A stretch of DNA of 64,000 bases from Liolophura sinensis (lineage: Eukaryota > Mollusca > Polyplacophora > Chitonida > Chitonidae). The translations under genes were made by a program, and so were the position numbers. Each line of letters starts with the position of its first letter. The stretch's first letter is position 1. The notes under the pieces were generated by a model. The model was not told the origin of the DNA. It saw nothing but the letters and a program-made list of their open reading frames with translations, and made no database searches. Positions 38,101 through 51,700 of the stretch are shown in pieces. Location: contig NC_088296.1 of NCBI RefSeq assembly GCF_032854445.1, positions 27,335,064 through 27,399,063 on the forward strand, written 5' to 3'.

Positions 38101-41100
38101 TAAAACAATCAGAAACGCAATGTGGCATCTCGTACTCCACAAACATATAGCACAACTGAGTTCGGATGACGTTAGTCCTTTGGTTATAGAAACAGCCCGT
38201 GTCTGATGGGAAAAAAACTGATAAGATGACGGCACTTTTGATTGTCTCAATATGCATTAATTTGCGTTCTTTGATCTGAAATATCTCATTTGTGTAACAT
38301 AATTGCCTGTGGGATAATTTATTGATGTGTACATGTATTTGGTCTAGTGGTATCTTTTCTTTTTACATCTGGAGCCAGTGATGTAATTAATACCCATTTT
38401 GGTTTCTTGAGATATGCACTAAATCAAACTCTTCAGATGTTTTTCATATTGGAACCAATACATACATTTAAGAGCATATGGCTCCTAAAACGCCTCTTAT
38501 TCCCACCTCTGTCATAATCTCTCTCTGTCTCCAATCCTCAAATATATGAATGTGAAAATGTCCTGTGAATTTGAACTGGGGTGTTTTACTGGAATCCACA
38601 AGTACATGTGGCTTGGTTAGTATAACTGTTTACAGTTAGAAGCACAAGTACAGTACAACAAAAAAGTGACCACTATGAACACGCGTGTCGTATGGGTACC
38701 ACACGGCTATTACACGCGTGTGGAATGCATTACGTCAGGCAGACAGGCACTGCCTGGCAGGCTTTGCCTGCTTGAACAACACGGCTACGATATGCGTGTG
38801 GAGAAAACCACACGGATACCACACGCGTGTGGTTATCGTCGTTTTAAATGTCGTTATTACAAATAAAACTGTAATAAAAAATACCTATACGTGGTTTGTT
38901 TTGTTTTCTTTTCATGAGCAGTTTTTATTGCGATGTAAATCGTGTATTAATAGTGGAAAACGTTGTTTTATTACGACACGCTATCTACTGTACGTTGCCG
39001 TCGGTCGGTCGGCCGCGCACTTTTCAAATTTCTGCCGAACTTCCACTGAGAGAACTTGGGGCCTACATGTACACTGTACGTTTACCAAACAAACAGGATG
39101 TCAGAATCAGGTAACGTTGTTGTCAGTGTTGCAAAAAGTGACGTACTGTTGTAAAAAGTGACGTAGTGGGTTTTTTTTCTGTATTTGCTAATACGTTGCA
39201 GGACCAGTAAAAGTTTTTGTAAGCTCCGATCTAGTGTGCCGAAACTGCCGGTGTAAAAGTGTAAGCCCAGAGGCTTGCACAGCGTAATGCCTTCAATCAG
39301 TATTCAATTAATTTAGTGACACAGATATATTTAAAATCAAACTAATTCTTTGAATACGAACCAGCAATTGCCTACGAGCGTGTGTATTTACCTTGTGCCA
39401 TATATGGTACATTTAATCCTGAAAAAAATACTGGAAATAAACCTTCACGGGTACCGCAGCTTCTCGCCGCCATTTACATGTACGTTCAAAATGAACTTCA
39501 TCCGACTCGGTTCTCTTTTTTCAAAGCCGTTCAGATACAAACACAAATTACTCATTATGATAACAACTGCATGTATAATTCTGGACTCGTCTCTCCCTCT
39601 TCCCTCGAGCAATTGAAAACAACTTACGGGTTTTCTGCACAAGCACATTTAGGCCCCGTCTTCTGTTCGCATGATCTTAAATTACGAATACAGCAGGGTG
39701 GGCAATCTCGCATAACCTTATGCTGACATCCAACATGTACAAAATAACCTAAACTTTAAAGTAAAATGGTATAAATAAATATCGCAGCGCTGGTCTTCAA
39801 GTGGCCTACAGTACCTTTTTGTTTTTTTTTAGCAGTTCACGGTCGAATGTAGGTTAAAAAGGGAGACAATTTTGTCTATTCTTTCAAAATAACCTGCTGA
39901 AGCAAACTGGTTGCATAAATTTTATTTATTTATTTATTTAATTTATATCACTGGTGTTTTACCCCATACTCAAGAATATTGTATGCATAAAAGCAAGTTT
40001 GCCTATTGAGACAAGTTTCTATAAGCGTTGCCTTAGGAATAAAACCGCCAGTACATTTCTATATATTCATAAAAATTTTGCATTATATAACGATTTCAGT
40101 TGCCTATTTATTGATTATTGATACATGTATATGTACTATAAAACCCCTTTCTCACTGCTGTCACATCACAGGTTATATGAAAGTAAAGTAAAATGTTCTG
40201 AACTGGCAGTATACAACACAAAATTATTTCCAATGCAACGAGGAAATCATCATCATAAAAAAAAACAATTTTTTTCATGTTTTTTTTTTTCACAGTAGCA
40301 CCATGCACCGCCCGCCAGTTTTTGAAGCAGCTGGCAGCAGAGGAGAAGGAAAATGGTATGTTCATTATGGGCCTACTAAAATAGCATTCAGCATTTATTT
40401 CAACCGTAGTTTTTTTTTTTTTTTTGCCATGCTCAATAATGTGATTATATAATTTGTATTACTGATGGTCTTAATATTTCTACAGCCATTTTAAAATTAA
40501 TTTTCAATAGACTGCCATACATCTTAATAATTTTTTCTAAATCTATTTTCTCTATTTCAGAATACCTTATTCTATTCGACGAGGACGGCAAGACAACTAG
40601 AATGTCAAAACCAAAGTTTTCTGTGCCGTCCTCGGAGATCAAAATCTCCTCTGTCTGCCACCTGCTTCATGGCGGCCGGAAATATTTGGTGGAAATTCTC
40701 GCCATTGGAGGTAAATATATCATTCTGATACATAAGTAAAATGTCATTCTCTTTATGTCAGATTATTACAATAAATTATTATTCTCCATATTTTATAAAA
40801 ATAATAACCTGGGCCAAATCTTCTCTTTTCAATGTGTAGCACCAGAAGAACTGGATATTATAGATCAGGCCTGGCCCCAAACCCACAGGGGCCAGGCCAT
40901 TACAAAGTCCCTGGAGTCCCGACATGGGGCTCCCGGGGGATATATCTCCATATGGCCAGAGGGCAAGGTATCAAAAGCTCTGTTCAAGATTTGTTTAAGT
41001 TGTTCTTTATAAACATCCTTGTTTCTTTCTGTTAGTAGACTCTTTGCTGCTGTTACTGGGTTACTTTATGTTTGGTTAGAACGTTTTTGAATAAAGTTAT

Positions 41101-44100
41101 TCAGGTTGATTGATTTGTATTCACTTGTATGTTCTGAACCAAAGTATCGCCTTAACACTCTCATATCACGGATTAAAATATTGTTTACTACAAACGTTCA
41201 CTAAATGTTCAATGCAGATTATATAAAATGAAGGTAATGCTATGCAATACACAGGATTATAAATTTCAAAAGTGTTCTCTAGATGGTTAAATGTTATTAC
41301 AATGCAATGCAAATAATACTTGTAGTAACCTTTAAATTTATTTGGTTAAAATTTGCTTTTTTCTTTTTTTGCAGTTGATGGAAGAAATTGATTTTTCCTT
41401 GGGGGAAGAGTGGGGGGATTTGGGGGATTTGGGGGATTTAGGGTTTGTTAATGTATCTGGTGAGGGGATTAGTGAGGACATTTTAGAAGGGGTTAGTGTA
41501 GCTGGGGGTGGTGGGGGGGTGCTAGAGGGGGGTAGTAATCAAGTGTTGGTGGGGGGTGGGAGTGAAGGTGTAGCGGGGGGATCTAGTGTAGGCAGTAGTG
41601 GGGAAAAAACAGGGAAGGGAGTAGTTCGGGGAAAGGGGAAGGGGAAAGGGAAAGGGAAAAGAAGGATGGCACATGAGGCGGAAAGTGGGAGTAAAGCAAA
41701 GGTAAGGTTCAGTTTTAAGTGCTTGTAAACAAAAAGGCTGTGGTAATATTACCTGGAAATGACCTTTGTATTATTCCCATATAACTTGTCTGTAAATGTG
41801 TATTGAAACATGTCATGGTAAATGTAATCTCACACTAATGATATCAGTAAAAGCAGTCCTGCTGTATACAGAAATAGTCAACACCTGTATCAAGAATATC
41901 AAAGCATGCTGTTGTGAAATGCAAGTCCATTTTTATTAATTGCATAAAGTATGTAACTAATTATGTCATAGTAATCATGTCATATTTTATTCTGTTTCAG
42001 ATGGTTGTATTGAGGGATGGGGATTCGGGGAGGGATGACAGGGCGGAGGACCACAGAGTCCCTGACTTTGTGGACCTGACATCAAACAACGACCTGGTAA
42101 GAACTGTAGACATCTTACACATTTATACAATTTTAGGAAATAAATCTGTACTTCTGTGATTGTAAAACGCACAGACTATTTCACATAGCACTAAGAATAG
42201 GCTTCCAGGCGATAAACTGAAATGGAATGAGTATGTATATTCAGGATGTTAATTACATAAATATTAGTGTAACATTATTGTCCATGATTAGGGCAATATA
42301 GGATTAGAATATATTTGCCATGCTCCCAAATGAGGTTGCTTCACAAAAATAGTTTATCATGCACCTAGTTATCATGTAGACCTTTTTGAAAACAAGAATC
42401 ATTTTCAAACAACCAATCTTCATGCTAAATATTATACGCATTTACACAAATAAATTGACAAGCATAATGAGAAAAACTCGTCAAATATCTATAGCACTGA
42501 AACAAGAAGTTAATTAACATTACTTCTATTTTTTATTATTATTCATAAATCAGCGATGTTTTCGTGCCTGTGTTTTATTACAGGAGATGTCAGCCATGTG
42601 TTTTTTGTGTGTGTGTCTGTGTTCATTACAGGAAATGTGATAACATTTGTCTGCATGTAATAATCAAGCAGTACATCATACACACTCAGAGATGTCATAA
42701 CATATGAGGTACTGCATGATTATCACACGAACAGTCCACATTTTTGCCTGATTTATTTCTTTCTTTCTGTTAACAGGTTGATGCTTTCAAGACTGGCCAG
42801 GTCGTTGTTCGACATGAATCTGCTCCTCAACAGAGGGATTGCTGTCGGCACTGCCACGCGATCCCTCTGTTGCCAGACCAGATTCGAGAGATTGTTCGGC
42901 AGGAACTGGTTTCCTACACAGAAGAACTACACCGGAGGTTTCAGGGCATGCTGAAGCAACAGCTGGCTGAAATACTGCCAGGGTTGCTGGAGAGACAGGG
43001 AGAAGGCAGAGTCCTTGCCTCCCCACCTGCCTCCTCCTCAGCTGCCACCCCACTGCCTTCCACCCCTCCAGAGATGCCATCTACTGTTGGGGTGGGTATT
43101 GCTAAACAGCATTTAAGGCTTGGTGCGCACAAGGATGATTGCCATTTTATGCATGACTTGTGCGTCATCCCGGATAGTGTGGTGGCAATGGTTGAGGAAA
43201 AATCTGCAGGAAATCCACAGATTTTTGCCTCGACCTTGACCATGGCACTATTCCGGGGGGAGGAGCTGTCTGGTAGGGCTGTTGACGGCTCAAAGCAAGG
43301 GAAGGCAGCTTTGAGCCCTCGACGCCTGAATGCCATCAAACAAAAGGTGTTTGATGTGCACTCAGTGCCCCCGTCACAAAGACAGGAGAAGTGGCACAAA
43401 TGTAAAACTGCCATTAACTGCAAACTTAGGAACCTCCTTAGAAAATCCTAGTTTGCAGTTAATGCAGTTTTGCATTTTCTGCCACTTTTTCTGTTTTTGT
43501 GCGGTGATAATGAGAATTATCTGCCAAGCTGCTCCTTTTTCCAACCCTAATGTCATTTTGGTTTCCTCTTAAGCTGCTGGAGTTTACCACATAAAAATGT
43601 GGTAGATTCTATAAAAAAAATAAATGGTATATTTCAATTCCCTCCAACAAGTTGGTTCCCTCAATAAGTTATTTTCCTCCATGAAATTGGTTTCCTATTG
43701 GTCAAGGTATTGCTGAAAAAATGCTGTCTTGGCCAATTCTTGCCTTACAGTCTCTGTCCTCCGCCCTGTCCAAAAAAAAAAAAAAAAAAAAAGGGGGGGT
43801 TGGGGGGTGGGGGAAATAATGTTATTGTTTAATTTATTATTATATAAGATTTGTATATAACTGAAATTTTTATTTAAACAGTATTTATAATAGTGCAATA
43901 AAATATTTATAACTAATTGTAAAATATTTAAATATATAAATAAATTGTTCAACTTTTCATTTTGTTGTTTTAAATAAATTATAAATGTTACAAGATTGAG
44001 TGAACTTTACTGTGTTTCTTCACGTTATGGCCACATTTAAAAAAAGTACACTATTTAAAACATGGTCTTTTTGCTATATTCCCCCAATCAACATCTATAT

Positions 44101-45721
44101 GCATGTAGTTCAACATCTATTTCTGTACTTTTTGGGGTTGAAATAATGTGTGTAGAAATCAACATGAACTGACCTAAGACGTGTACTTTATTTAACTGTG
44201 GTTTTGTCTTTTAGTGTTTTCATATCAGTATCTTCAAATTCCAATGAATGCATATCTTACTGCGGCTGCGCCCAACATCTGTGATTGCAAGTTAATTCCT
44301 ACGTCTTCTCCATTGCCTCCAGAGTGCTCTTAACAGTTTATGCTGGAATTTGGCAATGTATCTTGTCCTGCCTTTCAAACTCTAAGCATGTTATAACTTG
44401 GTGAACCTAGAAGGAAAGTCTAGTTCTGGATTGAACCAGTCCCTGGAACCTGGATGGTAGATTTATTGCAGAATCATATAAAGGAGGGTCACTAATACAT
44501 TTTTACATGGTTCCTTGTGCCAGTTTACACTCTATGAAGTGTCTAGCAGCTTGGTGATAGTCAGCTGATGACATGCATTAGAACATCCCTTCAGGCCAGG
44601 TTTCCTATCACCATAATGTTGTATTACTTAGTGTAAAGAATGTTGACAGGTGGAACATAACAGCCCAGAAGTTAATGCAGTGAAGAAAATCCAAAAGTTT
44701 AATGTGAGTGAGTGAGTGAGGTGAGATAAGAACACACAAACAAACAAACAGCTGAACGTGAAAGAATACTTTTTCAACCAACAATTTATTCCAAGCAACA
44801 AGTTATGATTCACTATACAAACTACATAAATGTTCCACTTGGTAGTCCATGCATGTTAAAAACGCAGCTGTCCTGTTATTAATTATTGACAACTCGTGTT
44901 GCTTAGAGTGAAAAATATTCCCCCGCACCAAAAAACCGAAAGTGTCTCTTTCAGGAAAAAGCGTAGGGATTACAAATATATTTCCACAATTACATGTAAA
45001 TCAGATTTATGATGAAAAGTCTTCTCACAGTTAATGTTCATACCCTGTGTGCTGCACTGTCTGAAAAGAGATGAAATGTACGAAGTATTAATTTATTGGA
45101 TCAAAGTTTTGTGTTGACCTTTAATGGAAATATATACAGAATACATGTGGTGATTGCATCAACTTTGCTGCAGATGCAATTTATCAAACAGGTAGTTGAT
45201 AAAACAAGAAGTTTAAAAAAAGGATGTAGTGAAAACTTTAAAACTGAAACTAAATCTAAACTAAACTTTAAATCTTGAGACTACAAGTACCTTTGTACTA
45301 TTGCCTTCTGTCTGAAAAGATACAAAGATACTGACATATGAATAAGATATACATAAAGACAATCTGAGATGTGTCTGGTTCATTGAGAAAATATTGTACT
45401 CAATCAATAACCAGATGCAGCCCCATTACGTTCTATGGCCCGAGGAATAACTTTTCGTAAATGATCTATGAACCTTCTGCAGAGCTGTGGCGTGATACTG
45501 CGCCAACAGTCTACAATACCGTCTATAAGCTGATCCTTTGTCTGCGGCTTGTGTTTCTTTGCCAGGTTTGTCTTCAACATTGCCCATACCATCTCTATGG
45601 GGTTGAGGTCTGGAGATTCGGGTGGTGTCCTCCAGTGGTTGATTCCATGAGACTTCATAAATTCTATAATAATATATGTAAAATTCGATGTCTTGAGAAA
45701 TATATAAAAATACATTATAAA

Positions 45722-45763
<42 letters not shown>

Positions 45764-48700
45764 AGAATAGATTTTCTTTCCTAGATAAGAACAAAACAGC
45801 CGAAACTGCAGTCAAAATACGCAGGTGTAGAAAGTCACTTCCTTTTTATTCCATCATTTCTCCACGTCAAAGAAATCTTACTTTCATATATATTATATAT
45901 AACCAGCATTTGTTTACAGCAGAAGTTAATTTTTAGTTCTTACTTGTATAAAGGAGAAATACTACAACTTTATTCACTGATAAAAGTGATATTTCACATA
46001 GTTATATATCACAGTTTTTTTAATTGCACTCGCAACAATAAGTCATACAAGACAAGGTGTTACAGTGACTTTGTATAAATGGTTTATTTCTTCACCTTTT
46101 GTGCTTCTACTAGTGTGTTTAGGGTCGTTGTCCTGGATGAATCTGTGCCCTTCTGGATAAGTCTGTCACAAATAATTTACAAAAAAAAATAAGACCTGCA
46201 TTCATAATTCGTTTTGATAATGAATATGATAAATAAAATAATGTAAATTCAAAATCACCGATAGTACTAAAATCTGGCCACTTCAGCTGAACATGTATAT
46301 GCTGTTTAATGTTACATACAAGAACAGTTTTGATTTATTTGCTTTTTTGTACTTCAAACCTGATTCACATAGATGACATATGCATACGCCCATTGTAGCT
46401 CGTTTCACAAGCTTGCAATTATTATTATACTTCATGTGATTTATGACGAAAAACCAAAATTTGTAAACCTGTTTGATGAAAGGAATTAATATGTCTTCCA
46501 AAATCTTCTGGTAGCCAATGCTGTCCATGATTCCCGTGAAAATGCGAATCTTTGTGGCTCCTCTGTATGAAATTCCAGCCCAAACATGCACCTGTGAATG
46601 ACATGCATGAAACAGATTAGTTTTATATATATATATAATATATATATATATATGTCCTTATTTATTACTTCCAATATCTATATAAACTTGAGTTTCACGC
46701 AAAACAACCTGTAAATTATTAATTCCAGTACATGACGTCTGGTGTTTAATGAGAAGGCAAGTGTAGGAAATTTAATTTGTTCATATCGGTTCATACATGA
46801 GTGGTTACTCGTAAAATGTGGCATCCCCAGTTGTAAGGATTTTCACTGTTACATAAATAGTACGCCCTCGGACTGATGTCATACTTTGAAAGGATGCTTG
46901 GGCTTCCACACTTTTGCGATGATGGTCTTTTCCTCCTTGTGTATAAATCGCATCCTTCCACTTCTCATAACTTCTATGGATGCCTCATCTGAAAAGATAC
47001 AATCTTGAAATTCCTCATTATTAGAATAGCACATTAAACAGTATGTCAACCTTTTGACCTGGTTTTCTCGTCTTACCATTTGGCAGTACCTGAAAAGAAA
47101 AAAAATTTTTTAGTCTTACTAGTTTTTTTTTTGTATGGTTGATAACCAACTCTAAGTTCTAGCTTGAACTTTAAATTGACGTGTTGTTCCATATACGAAA
47201 TGTACATGTAACCATTTAGAATCACCAGTATCCTCTGAAAGTAACTAGTAAAATAATAATATGGAAAACTTTACTGCATAGTTTTTATGAGACAGTTTAT
47301 ATATAATTGCCCAGTCACAATAAAAATTTATAAATTTCCATCTTTACCTGGTTTGCTTCTTACACCATCCAAGTTTGCGGACATGCAAACGAATGCATTC
47401 CGAGCTGACCTGTATCCGGAAAACATCCAGCATCCTCTGCTGAAGCTCTGCCATGGTTATGTCCCGATTGCATCGGATCCAGTGGTCGAGAGCATCGCCA
47501 TGAGCCACCTTCAACTTGGATGGCCTCCCAGATCTGTGCCCATCTGCTAAGCTATGAGATGTTCTGTAAAAAAAATGTCAGTTCATTGAGCACATGAAAT
47601 AAACTAGTATACCTGCAACAAATTGCCAAACTTCTTAAAATAATGTTTAAAGATGTACATATACTTTGACAATAGCACAATCTCAGATGTATTTTATTTT
47701 ATTAATGTTTTACACCATACTCCAGAATATTTCACTTATAAGTCGGCGACCAACGTTACAGTTGGGGAAAACCCATAATTATATGCATGTTCACGTATAT
47801 CCGGAGAGAAAGTCATTGAGTTGGACTTGAACTCACAGCGACCACACTGGTGAGAGGAACCTGGGTTATTGAGTTGCGCTGCACTCATGTGTTAATCACC
47901 TCAGCCCCAATTATTTTCAGCTTAGCTATTTACTGTATGTCTGATATTGTGTATTTATGATGCATGTAGAGATGGTAATCTGAAGGATTATGAAGAATTA
48001 AATTGATAAGAAAAAATTGTAGTCCTAAATATTTCACCAGTATTCTGGGCGCACAGTTTAGGGGTTCTTTTTTTTTAGTCAACAGTGTGTTTAATATTTT
48101 TTTAGGTGCACCTGGAATTTTTTATTTGTCAGAGAACTTGTTTAACACGACTATTTAATATTTTTGTTGTTGTTGTCAATGTGATAGTTTGAAAGTGAGT
48201 GCGGAATATAAAATGCAACCATTTTACCAGTGTAAATGTTATTCACGACAAGCGCCTAATATTCGTGTACGTTTTGTGTGTGCATTTGAAATAAATATGT
48301 ACCTAAATTATTTGGAAAGAAAAACCTGAAAACTTCACTACATGTACATGTACATGTACGTCATGACACATCGACAGTTTCGGCCAGGAGATCGAGGGTC
48401 GCGACCTCTGACAGCGCCGGCAGATGCCATCGCTCTGAACATCGCTCGGTAGGTCTGCTAGTGAAGCATTCAAGCAGGAGGCCGACTGGAATCAAGCTGA
48501 GCGATTATCGCGAGTTTTATCTGCTTTAAACATTAGGTGTTTCAACAGGGCTATTCGAATTTTCCGCATGCTATAGGAAATCTCCACGGATCGGCTGGTT
48601 GCAGAGGTGGGTAAGCAAATTATACTGTGGTATAAAGACTTCATTAGCGTGGAGAATGTTTCCACCACAGAAAGTGTTGGGCCATTTATTCATCACATAA

Positions 48701-51700
48701 TTATATAATCGTTACCCTTATTAGTTTTACATCTGGAATTACATTGGTGGACGCATTGACTAAGCCAATGTTGTTGTTTTTTTAGACACATTTACCAACA
48801 TCATGTATGTGAGGTATAGCAGTTTCGTTCACAGGTGAACCAACAACTTCTACATTTATGACTTAATCTCGAGGCAATCCCGCGAACAAACACACCCGAC
48901 TGCATGAGACGCCGCAGGAAACAACATAATGATTTACGTGAACTCTTCTTTTTGTGTGTGTCAGTGTGTGTGTGGAGGTGACGAAGCCTAAACATTAAAC
49001 TTCGGTCATGCTTACCTGTACCGCTTGCCAAACAGGCATATGGCCTTCAATGATGGGAGAAGTCGCACACCCCGCTGCTTCAGTCCGTCTCTAATCTTTG
49101 TCGGTGACCAGTTGAAAAGCGGCCCAAGAACAAACGCGATGAGAAACCGTACACGGTAGGAAATCTTGTGAAGCTGGAAAGTAGGTACACTCTGCGTGTC
49201 GTTCGCCATGTTGCCTTTTTTCTTCTGCCGGATTACAGCACAACCTATCAGTAGTCCTGCCGAAAACTAACCACACGGCTATCACACGGCTATCACACGC
49301 GTGTGGTTGATACCACACGCGTGTGGAACGCGCACCGTAAGATCTGTTGTGTGGTCAATATGCTGTGTTTCAGAGCAAACCACACGCGTGTGATACTCGT
49401 GTGGAATGCATTCCAACTGCGGTAGTAATGCGTGTGGTATGGTGGTCACTTTTTTGTTGTACTGTACATGAAGTAACAAATCCACAAACGTTGACTTATT
49501 CACTGCCATGCTTGGTTTCCTGCATGCATAAAATTTATCGACATAATGCTGGTGAAAAATTCTCCAGTTTTTACAGTATGATGATAAACAACAGTTAGCA
49601 TGACCAGACAAATGAGTATCTGTGCTGTGTGATGCTTGGTCTAACCATTGCTATGCTCTGATTGGCCAGATGCTGGACAGTATGATGATAAACAACAGTT
49701 AGCATGACCAGATAAATGGGTATCTGTGCTGTGTGATGTTTGATCTAACCATTGCTATGCTCTGATTGGCCAGATGCTGGAGAGTATGGTGAAGAAGCCG
49801 CGGCCTACGCGTGCAGAGAGCAGTGATGTGGCCAATGCTGTGCTGGACGGTGCCGACTGCGTCATGTTGTCCGGGGAGACTGCCAAGGGACAGTACCCAC
49901 TGGAAGCCCTCAAGATGATGCATAAGGTGACATGAGCACATTACTTTTTCATCGTAATTCCTCAGTCTTTTCTCATATGAGTGCAGCTTTCAGTGCAATT
50001 CGTGCGCGCTTTTAATTTGATTTTGGAGGCAAAACTACATTGGTCGGATTAACCAATATCAGGGCTTCACAAAAAGTATAATTTTTTCAGGCTACACTTC
50101 AGTATATGCTTGAATAAACACCTTGCAAACACGCGAAAAGGTTGAATGAATGATTATGGCTAAACGCCATCGAAAATGTTGAAGAATTACAGTAGCAGGC
50201 TACATTGGTAACACTCTTATCTGTTTGGAAATACAATCTGTGCAAAGACGTAATTCTGTTTTTAGAGGTGCAGAATACATCTGCTGTACATCTATAAAAG
50301 TGTAAAGTTATTACGGATATTTTTGTCCTCATTTGTATTGATGTAATTTACAGGAAGACTTGGGAGGGGAGCGAAATATTATTTGACATGCCAGTTAATA
50401 AATTGACGTGCAAACATGGGGTTTCTATCATAAAGACCTTCAGTTATAAGTTTATTTCGGTGATATGATTTCCCCCACCCTTAAACCTGACCACCGTCAT
50501 GAAAGTGAAAAATGAGTAAAAATCTTATCAGCAGTGAAGTGCATTGAAATATCAAAACTGGACCAAAAGCCAATCACTCAACAAGAGAATCATCATAAAA
50601 GTGCTGAATGATATTGTTTATTCTCTCACCAGATCTGCCGTGAGGCTGAATCTGCAGTGTTCCACAACCAGTTGTTTGAAGAGCTTCGCCGGGAGACCCC
50701 CACTCCAACTGACCCGACCCATACCATCGCCATAGCAGCCGTGGAGGCCTCCTTCAAGTGTCAGGCTGCGGCTATTATCGTCATCACAACAACGGGCAGG
50801 TGAGCAAACCTCTGAGTGTAGGCTGTCATTGTGTGGCTGCATTGCCTGTGTGGGACACATAAGCAGAACTTTGGTTGAGTGATAAAGTTGCTTTTATGTG
50901 GCCTATTTTACAAAGCAGTTACAAACTGCTCCTGGCATAGTTTCCTTGGCCACATATTAAAATACCGTTTCTGTCACCGAATCCAGCTCCTTTAGTTCTG
51001 CTTCAGGTGAATCCAGCTGTTATTAGTGCTTACATAACTGAGCCTAGCCTCTGTACTATCTCTCATGACTAAACTCAGCTCATGTTTATCTTTTCTCTGA
51101 TGAATTCAGCTAGTGGTAGCTCTTCAGTTGCTTTGTGACTGAAGTGGTCTAGTTTTCTCTGTTCCTAGATTTAACAACCAGTGAAATAAAGTCTCTGTCT
51201 TGGCTGTCATGTTAAGAGTGAAATACAGCTCTTGCCCAGTATTAGATTTTGTGAACTTGCTCCCAGGTTTGAGTTTGACTTTCTGGTTTGAGTCAGGAAG
51301 GTTTGTCACATATGTATGGTGAATCACATTAGTTTACCCTGGGCACTCAGGTTTCCTCAAAAACATGTCACTGTCGTAAAAGCGAAGGATTCTTGAGTAC
51401 ACTCTTACGACTCTTGAGTACAGCTCGTTATGACTCTTGAGTACAGCTCGTTACGACTCTTGAGTACAGCTCTTATGACTCTTGATTACAGCTCTTGCGA
51501 CTCTTGAGAGCAATCAGTTAAATACAATGTAGGTGTAAGTCAGTCAATACTAGCAGCAGGATGACGAGTGTGCACGTTTAGAGCATTGGACAATGAGTCC
51601 CTGTGATCTGAAAACCTTCAGCTGATCTGCATGTTTATATGATTTATTAAATATTACATTTCTAGACCTTCATCCAGCCTGAAAGAACGCTGCTCAATAA

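Follow-up and report, generated by a model that had tools for sequence, protein, structure and literature searches.

Can a transposon of the Tc1 family be 10.8 kb long, with introns in its transposase gene and a second gene facing it? In textbooks Tc1 stands for the transposon at its simplest, a single gene between two ends, and typical elements have a single open reading frame (ORF) and a mean length of ~1,300 bp (PMC7325037, excerpt). The question is raised by a 64,000-nucleotide stretch of the chiton Liolophura sinensis (here called the window; C2:27335064-27399063 of a 609-Mb genome in 632 contigs), in which a first-pass annotation, made from the letters alone, had described a Tc1-type element with a spliced transposase gene and, in the opposite direction, a spliced gene for a BEN-domain protein. 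The element occupies window 38651-49464 (10,814 bp between TAs), and the perfect 23-bp terminal inverted repeats (TIRs) with flanking TA that the annotation claimed, at 38651-38673 and 49442-49464, are borne out, as are two genes open and in phase over their predicted exons. These genes are convergent, the BEN gene (+ strand) starting 447 bp from the left end and the transposase gene (- strand) 255 bp from the right end; all eleven predicted introns (five in the transposase gene, six in the BEN gene) are GT-AG, and the longer terminal arms measure 32 nt and are 94% complementary. Taking the two propositions jointly, we think it probable that the element is a cut-and-paste DNA transposon of Tc1 type with two genes, and that its BEN protein has a role like that of TNPA in the Spm/En elements of maize, binding palindromes and bridging the ends and/or controlling both promoters. 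The ends are placed as follows.

38649..38650, left TA of the target-site duplication
38651..38673, + strand, left TIR, 23 bp, perfect
49442..49464, - strand, right TIR, 23 bp, perfect
49465..49466, right TA of the target-site duplication

The stretch between these TAs is a genuine mobile element. A search of the genome with the TIR plus TA (25 bases, at most two mismatches) gave 26 matches, against none for the reversed control pattern, which is more than chance. Twelve of the 26 make six inverted pairs, including spans of 10.8 kb and ~7.3 kb; the outer dinucleotides are TA in 11 of the 12 and CA in one, TA being part of the search pattern and so present at matched ends partly by construction. 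One full copy (C8:50400113-50410932, 10,816 bp between TAs) is 99.98% identical to the window element, with two mismatches and four gap columns, and both reading frames are open in both. Because this copy is so nearly identical, with unrelated flanks and a TA of its own, it records a recent transposition. Another full copy (C6:1866269-1877006, 10,734 bp between TAs) is 98.3% identical to the window element and has frameshifts and stops in both genes. TA stands on both sides in 3/3 full-length copies. The pair at C4:9866445-9873773 spans ~7.3 kb, its left TA now being CA, and there are two miniatures, one on C13 with 67 bp between its TAs and one at C6:16584774 with 133 bp. Further partial copies lie at C4:10412396, C6:44195921, C8:50333264, C8:6578121, and C4:1135217. 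The C4 copies near 9.87 and 10.41 Mb have a common right flank (159/229 bases identical ungapped, the first 120 nearly all identical by eye) and are counted as one insertion because this flank is shared; the pair, inverted relative to each other at a distance of 0.5 Mb, probably arose when a single insertion was duplicated along with the DNA around it. Both genes lie together inside the same TIRs in the three full-length copies, and parts of one or both are found in partial copies, which contradicts the alternative set up in the first-pass annotation, a short non-autonomous family around single-copy host genes.

The transposase gene is predicted to have six exons, in phase, encoding 354 amino acids.

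49016..49209, - strand, transposase exon 1
47348..47563, - strand, transposase exon 2
46885..47089, - strand, transposase exon 3, with D171
46469..46591, - strand, transposase exon 4
46096..46162, - strand, transposase exon 5, with D257
45404..45663, - strand, transposase exon 6, with E292 and the stop codon

This is the structure first described, down to the DD34E triad of D171, D257, and E292 with 34 residues separating the last two, and all three fall in invariant columns of a nine-row alignment that spans the N-terminus as well. Pfam DDE_3 scores 64.4 bits on the protein, and two N-terminal helix-turn-helix profiles score below their cut-offs (HTH_32, 24.1 bits; HTH_Tnp_Tc3_2, 16.8 bits). 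A protein search returned many Tc1 relatives, 38%–54% identical among the matches listed when the chiton's own protein is set aside; P0002-P0004 come from Mytilus, Pinctada, and Paramuricea. The chiton's own protein, the best match (P0001), is the NCBI model LOC135472697 of L. sinensis; its residues identify it as the C8:50333264 copy, and its first three splice junctions are the same as in our model. Because it matches the Sleeping Beauty structure 5cr4 in sequence (E = 2.4e-18) together with these listed relatives, the transposase is, as judged from its sequence, Tc1-like. The TIRs might belong to a larger, unrelated element into which a short Tc1 element has jumped, the transposase of the latter being inactive on these ends, and the length of the whole, far beyond the ~1,300-bp Tc1 mean (PMC7325037, excerpt), would then be accounted for. 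We regard such nesting as highly improbable, given a transposase ATG 255 bp from the right end, a TA target that fits Tc1, an architecture common to three full-length copies, and no inner TIR-like pair evident around the transposase among the longest 25 of 118 inverted pairs. The CAGT ends also fit Tc1.

The second gene is predicted to have seven exons, in phase, and to encode 481 amino acids plus the stop; the exons and phase given in the first-pass annotation stand, and its figure of 482 amino acids had counted the stop.

39098..39110, + strand, BEN exon 1, a prediction of only 13 nt
40299..40355, + strand, BEN exon 2
40561..40710, + strand, BEN exon 3
40840..40967, + strand, BEN exon 4
41375..41701, + strand, BEN exon 5, Gly-rich linker
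42001..42096, + strand, BEN exon 6
42777..43451, + strand, BEN exon 7, with a predicted long helix (exon residues 34-76), the BEN domain, and the stop codon

Pfam BEN (PF10523) matches exon 7 at 24.9 bits (cut-off 23.2), and the profile is also over the cut-off in two other copies (31.1 and 30.4 bits); the product is probably a DNA-binding (BEN) protein. An AlphaFold model of exon 7 alone, made without an alignment (mean predicted local distance difference test score, pLDDT, 50.5), has a single long helix at exon residues 34-76, ahead of the BEN part, with pLDDT ~80 at residues 51-70; such a helix is compatible with oligomerization. We also observed 52-nt arms, 77% complementary, on either side of the BEN stop codon (window 43375-43426 and 43450-43501), by which the end of the coding sequence folds back onto its own 3' flank.

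Seven copies were compared with the BEN gene of the window; one is without difference, one holds 13 nt, and five are informative. Measured against a neutral expectation drawn from the non-coding substitution spectrum, with CpG handled apart, all five have a synonymous excess (omega 0.29, 0.37, 0.64, 0.44, and 0.45; p = 0.00031, 0.0047, 0.015, 0.00046, and 0.00028), these comparisons sharing history and two of the five being one insertion. Because of that shared history, changes in six copies, a set without the near-identical C8 copy, were split into those shared by at least two insertions, which date from the time when the element was mobile, and those private to one. Shared changes in the BEN gene number 24 synonymous to 12 non-synonymous (omega 0.18, p = 7.3e-7), and private changes 63 to 138 (omega 0.81, p = 0.09), which is near neutral. 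By region, residues 1-117 account for 12:1 of the shared changes (p = 1.4e-6) and the remaining residues for 12:11 (p = 0.009); the selection signal is mostly outside the BEN domain. Purifying selection, acting on the element as a unit, has thus maintained the BEN gene during the spread of the element, and because shared changes are skewed to synonymous ones and private changes are near neutral, the element appears to need this gene and not to carry it as a passenger.

What the BEN protein might bind is suggested by the ends themselves. A perfect 10-bp palindrome, ACACGCGTGT, which is the core of the 14-bp, CGCG-centered CCACACGCGTGTGG, forms an array inside each TIR.

38679..38832, left subterminal array, ACACGCGTGT at 38679, 38712, and 38821; CCACACGCGTGTGG at 38819
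49295..49391, right subterminal array, ACACGCGTGT at 49295, 49315, and 49382

The 64-kb window has six exact copies, three by each end, all within 180 bp of the end, and none elsewhere; a first-order Markov control (20 runs) gave 0.0 exact and 1.1 one-mismatch copies per 64 kb. The copy in the right array nearest the transposase ATG is 86 bp upstream of it. Across 27 stretches (181,739 bases), 28/28 exact copies are in element ends, 25 of them no more than 200 bp from a recognizable TIR; the other three (L051) belong to the right end of the C8:50333264 copy, where the terminal bases have diverged. Of the 26 genome TIR matches, 20 have an exact palindrome no more than 220 bases from the end, all these loci having been picked by their TIRs, so that the counts describe such loci and not the whole genome. 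Among the 26 loci (3,025 bases each), exact copies more than 220 bases inward occur at one only, L025 (C11:11868471), which has 24 more palindromes at multiples of 31 bp, reaching ~1.1 kb from the TIR. In total, positions 1627-2628 of that locus hold 26 exact copies at 31-bp multiples over ~1 kb, and the array is a tandem amplification of the end site, as if becoming a satellite.

The BEN domain of BANP binds CGCG palindromes, its oligomer rejects methylated ones, and human BANP has a coiled coil ahead of the BEN domain (PMC11472053, excerpt); in Spm/En, transposition needs TNPA, a protein that binds subterminal repeats, together with TNPD (PMC2613891, excerpt). It is by analogy with the CGCG binding of BANP and the subterminal-repeat binding of TNPA that we suggest a TNPA-like role for the chiton protein. 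The transposase would cut at the 23-bp TIRs and join the element to TA. The BEN protein, whose long helix probably makes it an oligomer, would bind the CGCG-centered palindromes at both ends and could bring together the ends of an unusually long element. It could also switch both promoters on and off, possibly by way of CpG methylation, and the miniatures, with little beyond a TIR and palindromes, would be moved in trans. Possible, if doubtful, is a variant in which the BEN protein modulates chromatin or silencing (anti-silencing or self-repression) at the two promoters and is not an end-synapsis factor. In the window element each gene does have an array lying between its start codon and the nearby TIR, and regulation of transcription is the role described for BEN proteins (PMC11472053, excerpt), but both gene-less miniatures, of 67 and 133 bp, retain palindromes, a better fit to an end function, in only two elements.

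Several results weigh against a BEN protein that acts on these ends. Six of the 26 ends are without a palindrome (L005, L009, L013, L018, L027, and L028), L009 being the deleted right end of the 7.3-kb copy. Instead of the BEN protein, the transposase or a host protein could be what binds the palindromes. The palindromes might in particular be inner transposase binding sites, as are the inner direct repeats of Sleeping Beauty, with the BEN protein doing something else; Tc1-type transposases bind sites within their own ends, yet a symmetric CGCG-centered site is unlike the paired-domain sites of Tc1 transposases and resembles the sites of BANP-type BEN proteins (PMC11472053, excerpt), so we hold this explanation to be unlikely. 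The BEN assignment itself is borderline: the full 481-aa protein scores 23.1 bits, 0.1 under the cut-off of 23.2. Word-based searches of 5.8 billion proteins gave no relative of the BEN protein at E <= 1e-3, where the candidates were probably crowded by low-complexity words, and none at E <= 1 with residues 258-481. Nothing was found for it in viral contigs, nor in PDB by sequence, and NCBIfam has no family for this exon or for the BEN-like exon of a second chiton family described below. The model of the BEN part is of low confidence (five helices, mean pLDDT 66.6), and of its 17 Foldseek matches, none has E <= 0.001 and none is described as a BEN protein. In the BEN domain (residues 395-481), shared changes are 0 synonymous to 1 non-synonymous and private changes 4:17, with no constraint shown there. 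The transposase is not significant in the same test (shared 4:6, p = 0.22; private 27:76), and that of the partial copy at C8:50333264 has 1 synonymous to 10 non-synonymous changes.

The orphan status of the BEN protein in sequence searches and the unconstrained counts of its domain are what one would expect of a host BEN gene captured by a Tc1 transposon as a passenger, with no role in transposition. Set against this are the strong synonymous skew of shared changes over the whole gene, which private changes lack, the skew that persists beyond the N-terminal 117 residues (12:11, p = 0.009), and the BEN-like gene that a second Tc1 family holds in the same convergent position; capture of a passenger therefore seems improbable to us.

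This second family came from a search of the genome with the transposase, which gave at least 120 matches, the best 115 of 1,456 candidates having been scored. Its transposase at C3:23777878-23779089 (in L061, C3:23775500-23781500) is open, with 346 aa in three exons, and 43% identical to the window transposase over 329 aligned columns. The first intron lies at the same codon boundary as the third intron of the window gene (phase 0, before VHVWAGIS), and the second is five codons upstream of the window's fourth. About 175 bp past this transposase, on the opposite strand, is an exon with a BEN-like end, the genes being convergent. Pfam BEN scores 13.2 bits on it (E = 0.1), below the cut-off and the sole family listed; BLASTP finds nothing between it and the window BEN exon, and hhalign aligns the same part of both at 33% identity over 70 columns (P = 0.041, probability 1.3). 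By its sequence, the accessory gene of the second family is BEN-like, not proven BEN. The exon has 14 matches at six places in the genome, and a convergent transposase match adjoins it at three, on C3, C7 (BEN-like 31225175-31225815, transposase 31224602-31225000, region 31222760-31225830, L063-L065), and C4 (BEN-like 320909-321546, transposase 320390-320737). The C7 and C4 copies contain stops, and the C4 exon is 71% identical; the matches at C1:20778562, C12:31049133, and C1:78071692 have no adjacent transposase among the matches listed. The C3 and C7 copies could be a segmental duplication. A candidate TIR at L061:1477 was rejected, since C3–C7 homology continues through it to at least L061:1339, and no end of this family was identified. 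The distinct lineage proposed in the first-pass annotation is supported by this second family, where a transposase gene again converges with an accessory gene, although that BEN-like gene is under the Pfam cut-off.

In a midpoint-rooted tree of 34 rows (the two chiton families plus 32 rows chosen from the 120 matches listed), both families belong to a single supported group of ten (97/91), which also takes in P0055 and proteins of octocorals, pearl oysters, and mussels. They are not sisters in the tree, and a common clade is not rejected (approximately unbiased test, p = 0.30). The partnership with BEN may be ancient in this group, may have originated twice, or may have been lost by relatives. 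The introns may have been acquired, as the first-pass annotation supposed; some relatives must be intronless, their contigs being too short for introns (P0007, 340 aa on a 1,109-base contig; P0055, 329 aa, its contigs no longer than 1,173 bases), and the chiton genome also has one-piece Tc1 frames, such as C2:5110811-5111722 (337 aa, no stop). A speculative extension, which we would hold only tentatively and rate as unlikely in its entirety, is that Tc1-BEN forms an old branch of the Tc1 elements of animals, widely distributed, whose ends are marked and paired through CGCG palindromes by a BEN protein sensitive to methylation; a Tc1 transposase could thereby mobilize elements several times larger than usual, some animal and viral BEN genes perhaps descending from such elements.

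Around the element, candidate pyruvate kinase motifs lie on the + strand at ~27.5, 28.3, 33.0, 35.4, 37.7, and 49.8 kb (window 27516-49940), and an intron of that presumed gene seems to be where the element has inserted, with BEN sense and transposase antisense. Within transposase intron 1, window 47692-47880 matches several genome loci at ~80% and by eye is a short interspersed element now carried by the transposon. Just beyond the right end, window 49573-49780 holds two 104-bp tandem copies, 96% identical. The other two genome BEN matches, L001 (C4:9956684) and L004 (C3:6898990), resemble each other by eye; L001 has a coiled-coil-like stretch ahead of BEN and a fragment that by eye is like a Harbinger transposase, so that a BEN gene may accompany another transposon superfamily there.

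As the first-pass annotation had supposed, no described family with this make-up was found in the open-access literature: no listed paper treated a BEN gene within a transposon and, by title, none concerned an animal Tc1 element with a second DNA-binding gene. In PMC5704228 (excerpt) the term 'BEN domain' occurs only among the references, and the text of PMC12730594 contains neither 'mariner' nor 'BEN'. If the proposed role of the BEN protein is true, the Tc1 superfamily can evolve a two-protein, Spm-like architecture, and BEN proteins, known as chromatin factors, gain a possible role and source in mobile elements; the near-identical copies render the question directly testable.

We file the element under the Tc1 family (Sleeping Beauty, Tc1, Minos), with which it shares TA duplication, short TIRs, DDE_3, the DD34E spacing, and many sequence relatives, and from which it differs in its 10.8 kb, its introns (six transposase exons), its second gene, and its subterminal palindrome arrays, these being what is new. 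The TBE/Tec elements are likewise DD34E Tc1/mariner relatives with extra genes; TBE has three ORFs, including one for a zinc-finger protein, with purifying selection reported for the ORFs, whereas the hosts are ciliates, the accessory proteins are other ones, the TIRs are longer (~80 and 700 bp), and the source makes no mention of BEN there (PMC7325037, excerpt). BANP/BEND3-type proteins share the BEN domain, BANP having a coiled coil before it and binding CGCG palindromes (PMC11472053, excerpt), but they are host transcription factors, not transposon-encoded, and no sequence relative of the chiton protein was found. Spm/En elements are plant elements with a transposase superfamily unrelated to Tc1, and TNPA is not known to be a BEN protein. 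In their working these CACTA elements (TNPD plus TNPA) would be alike, pairing a transposase with an element-encoded DNA-binding protein much as we suggest that the BEN protein binds here.

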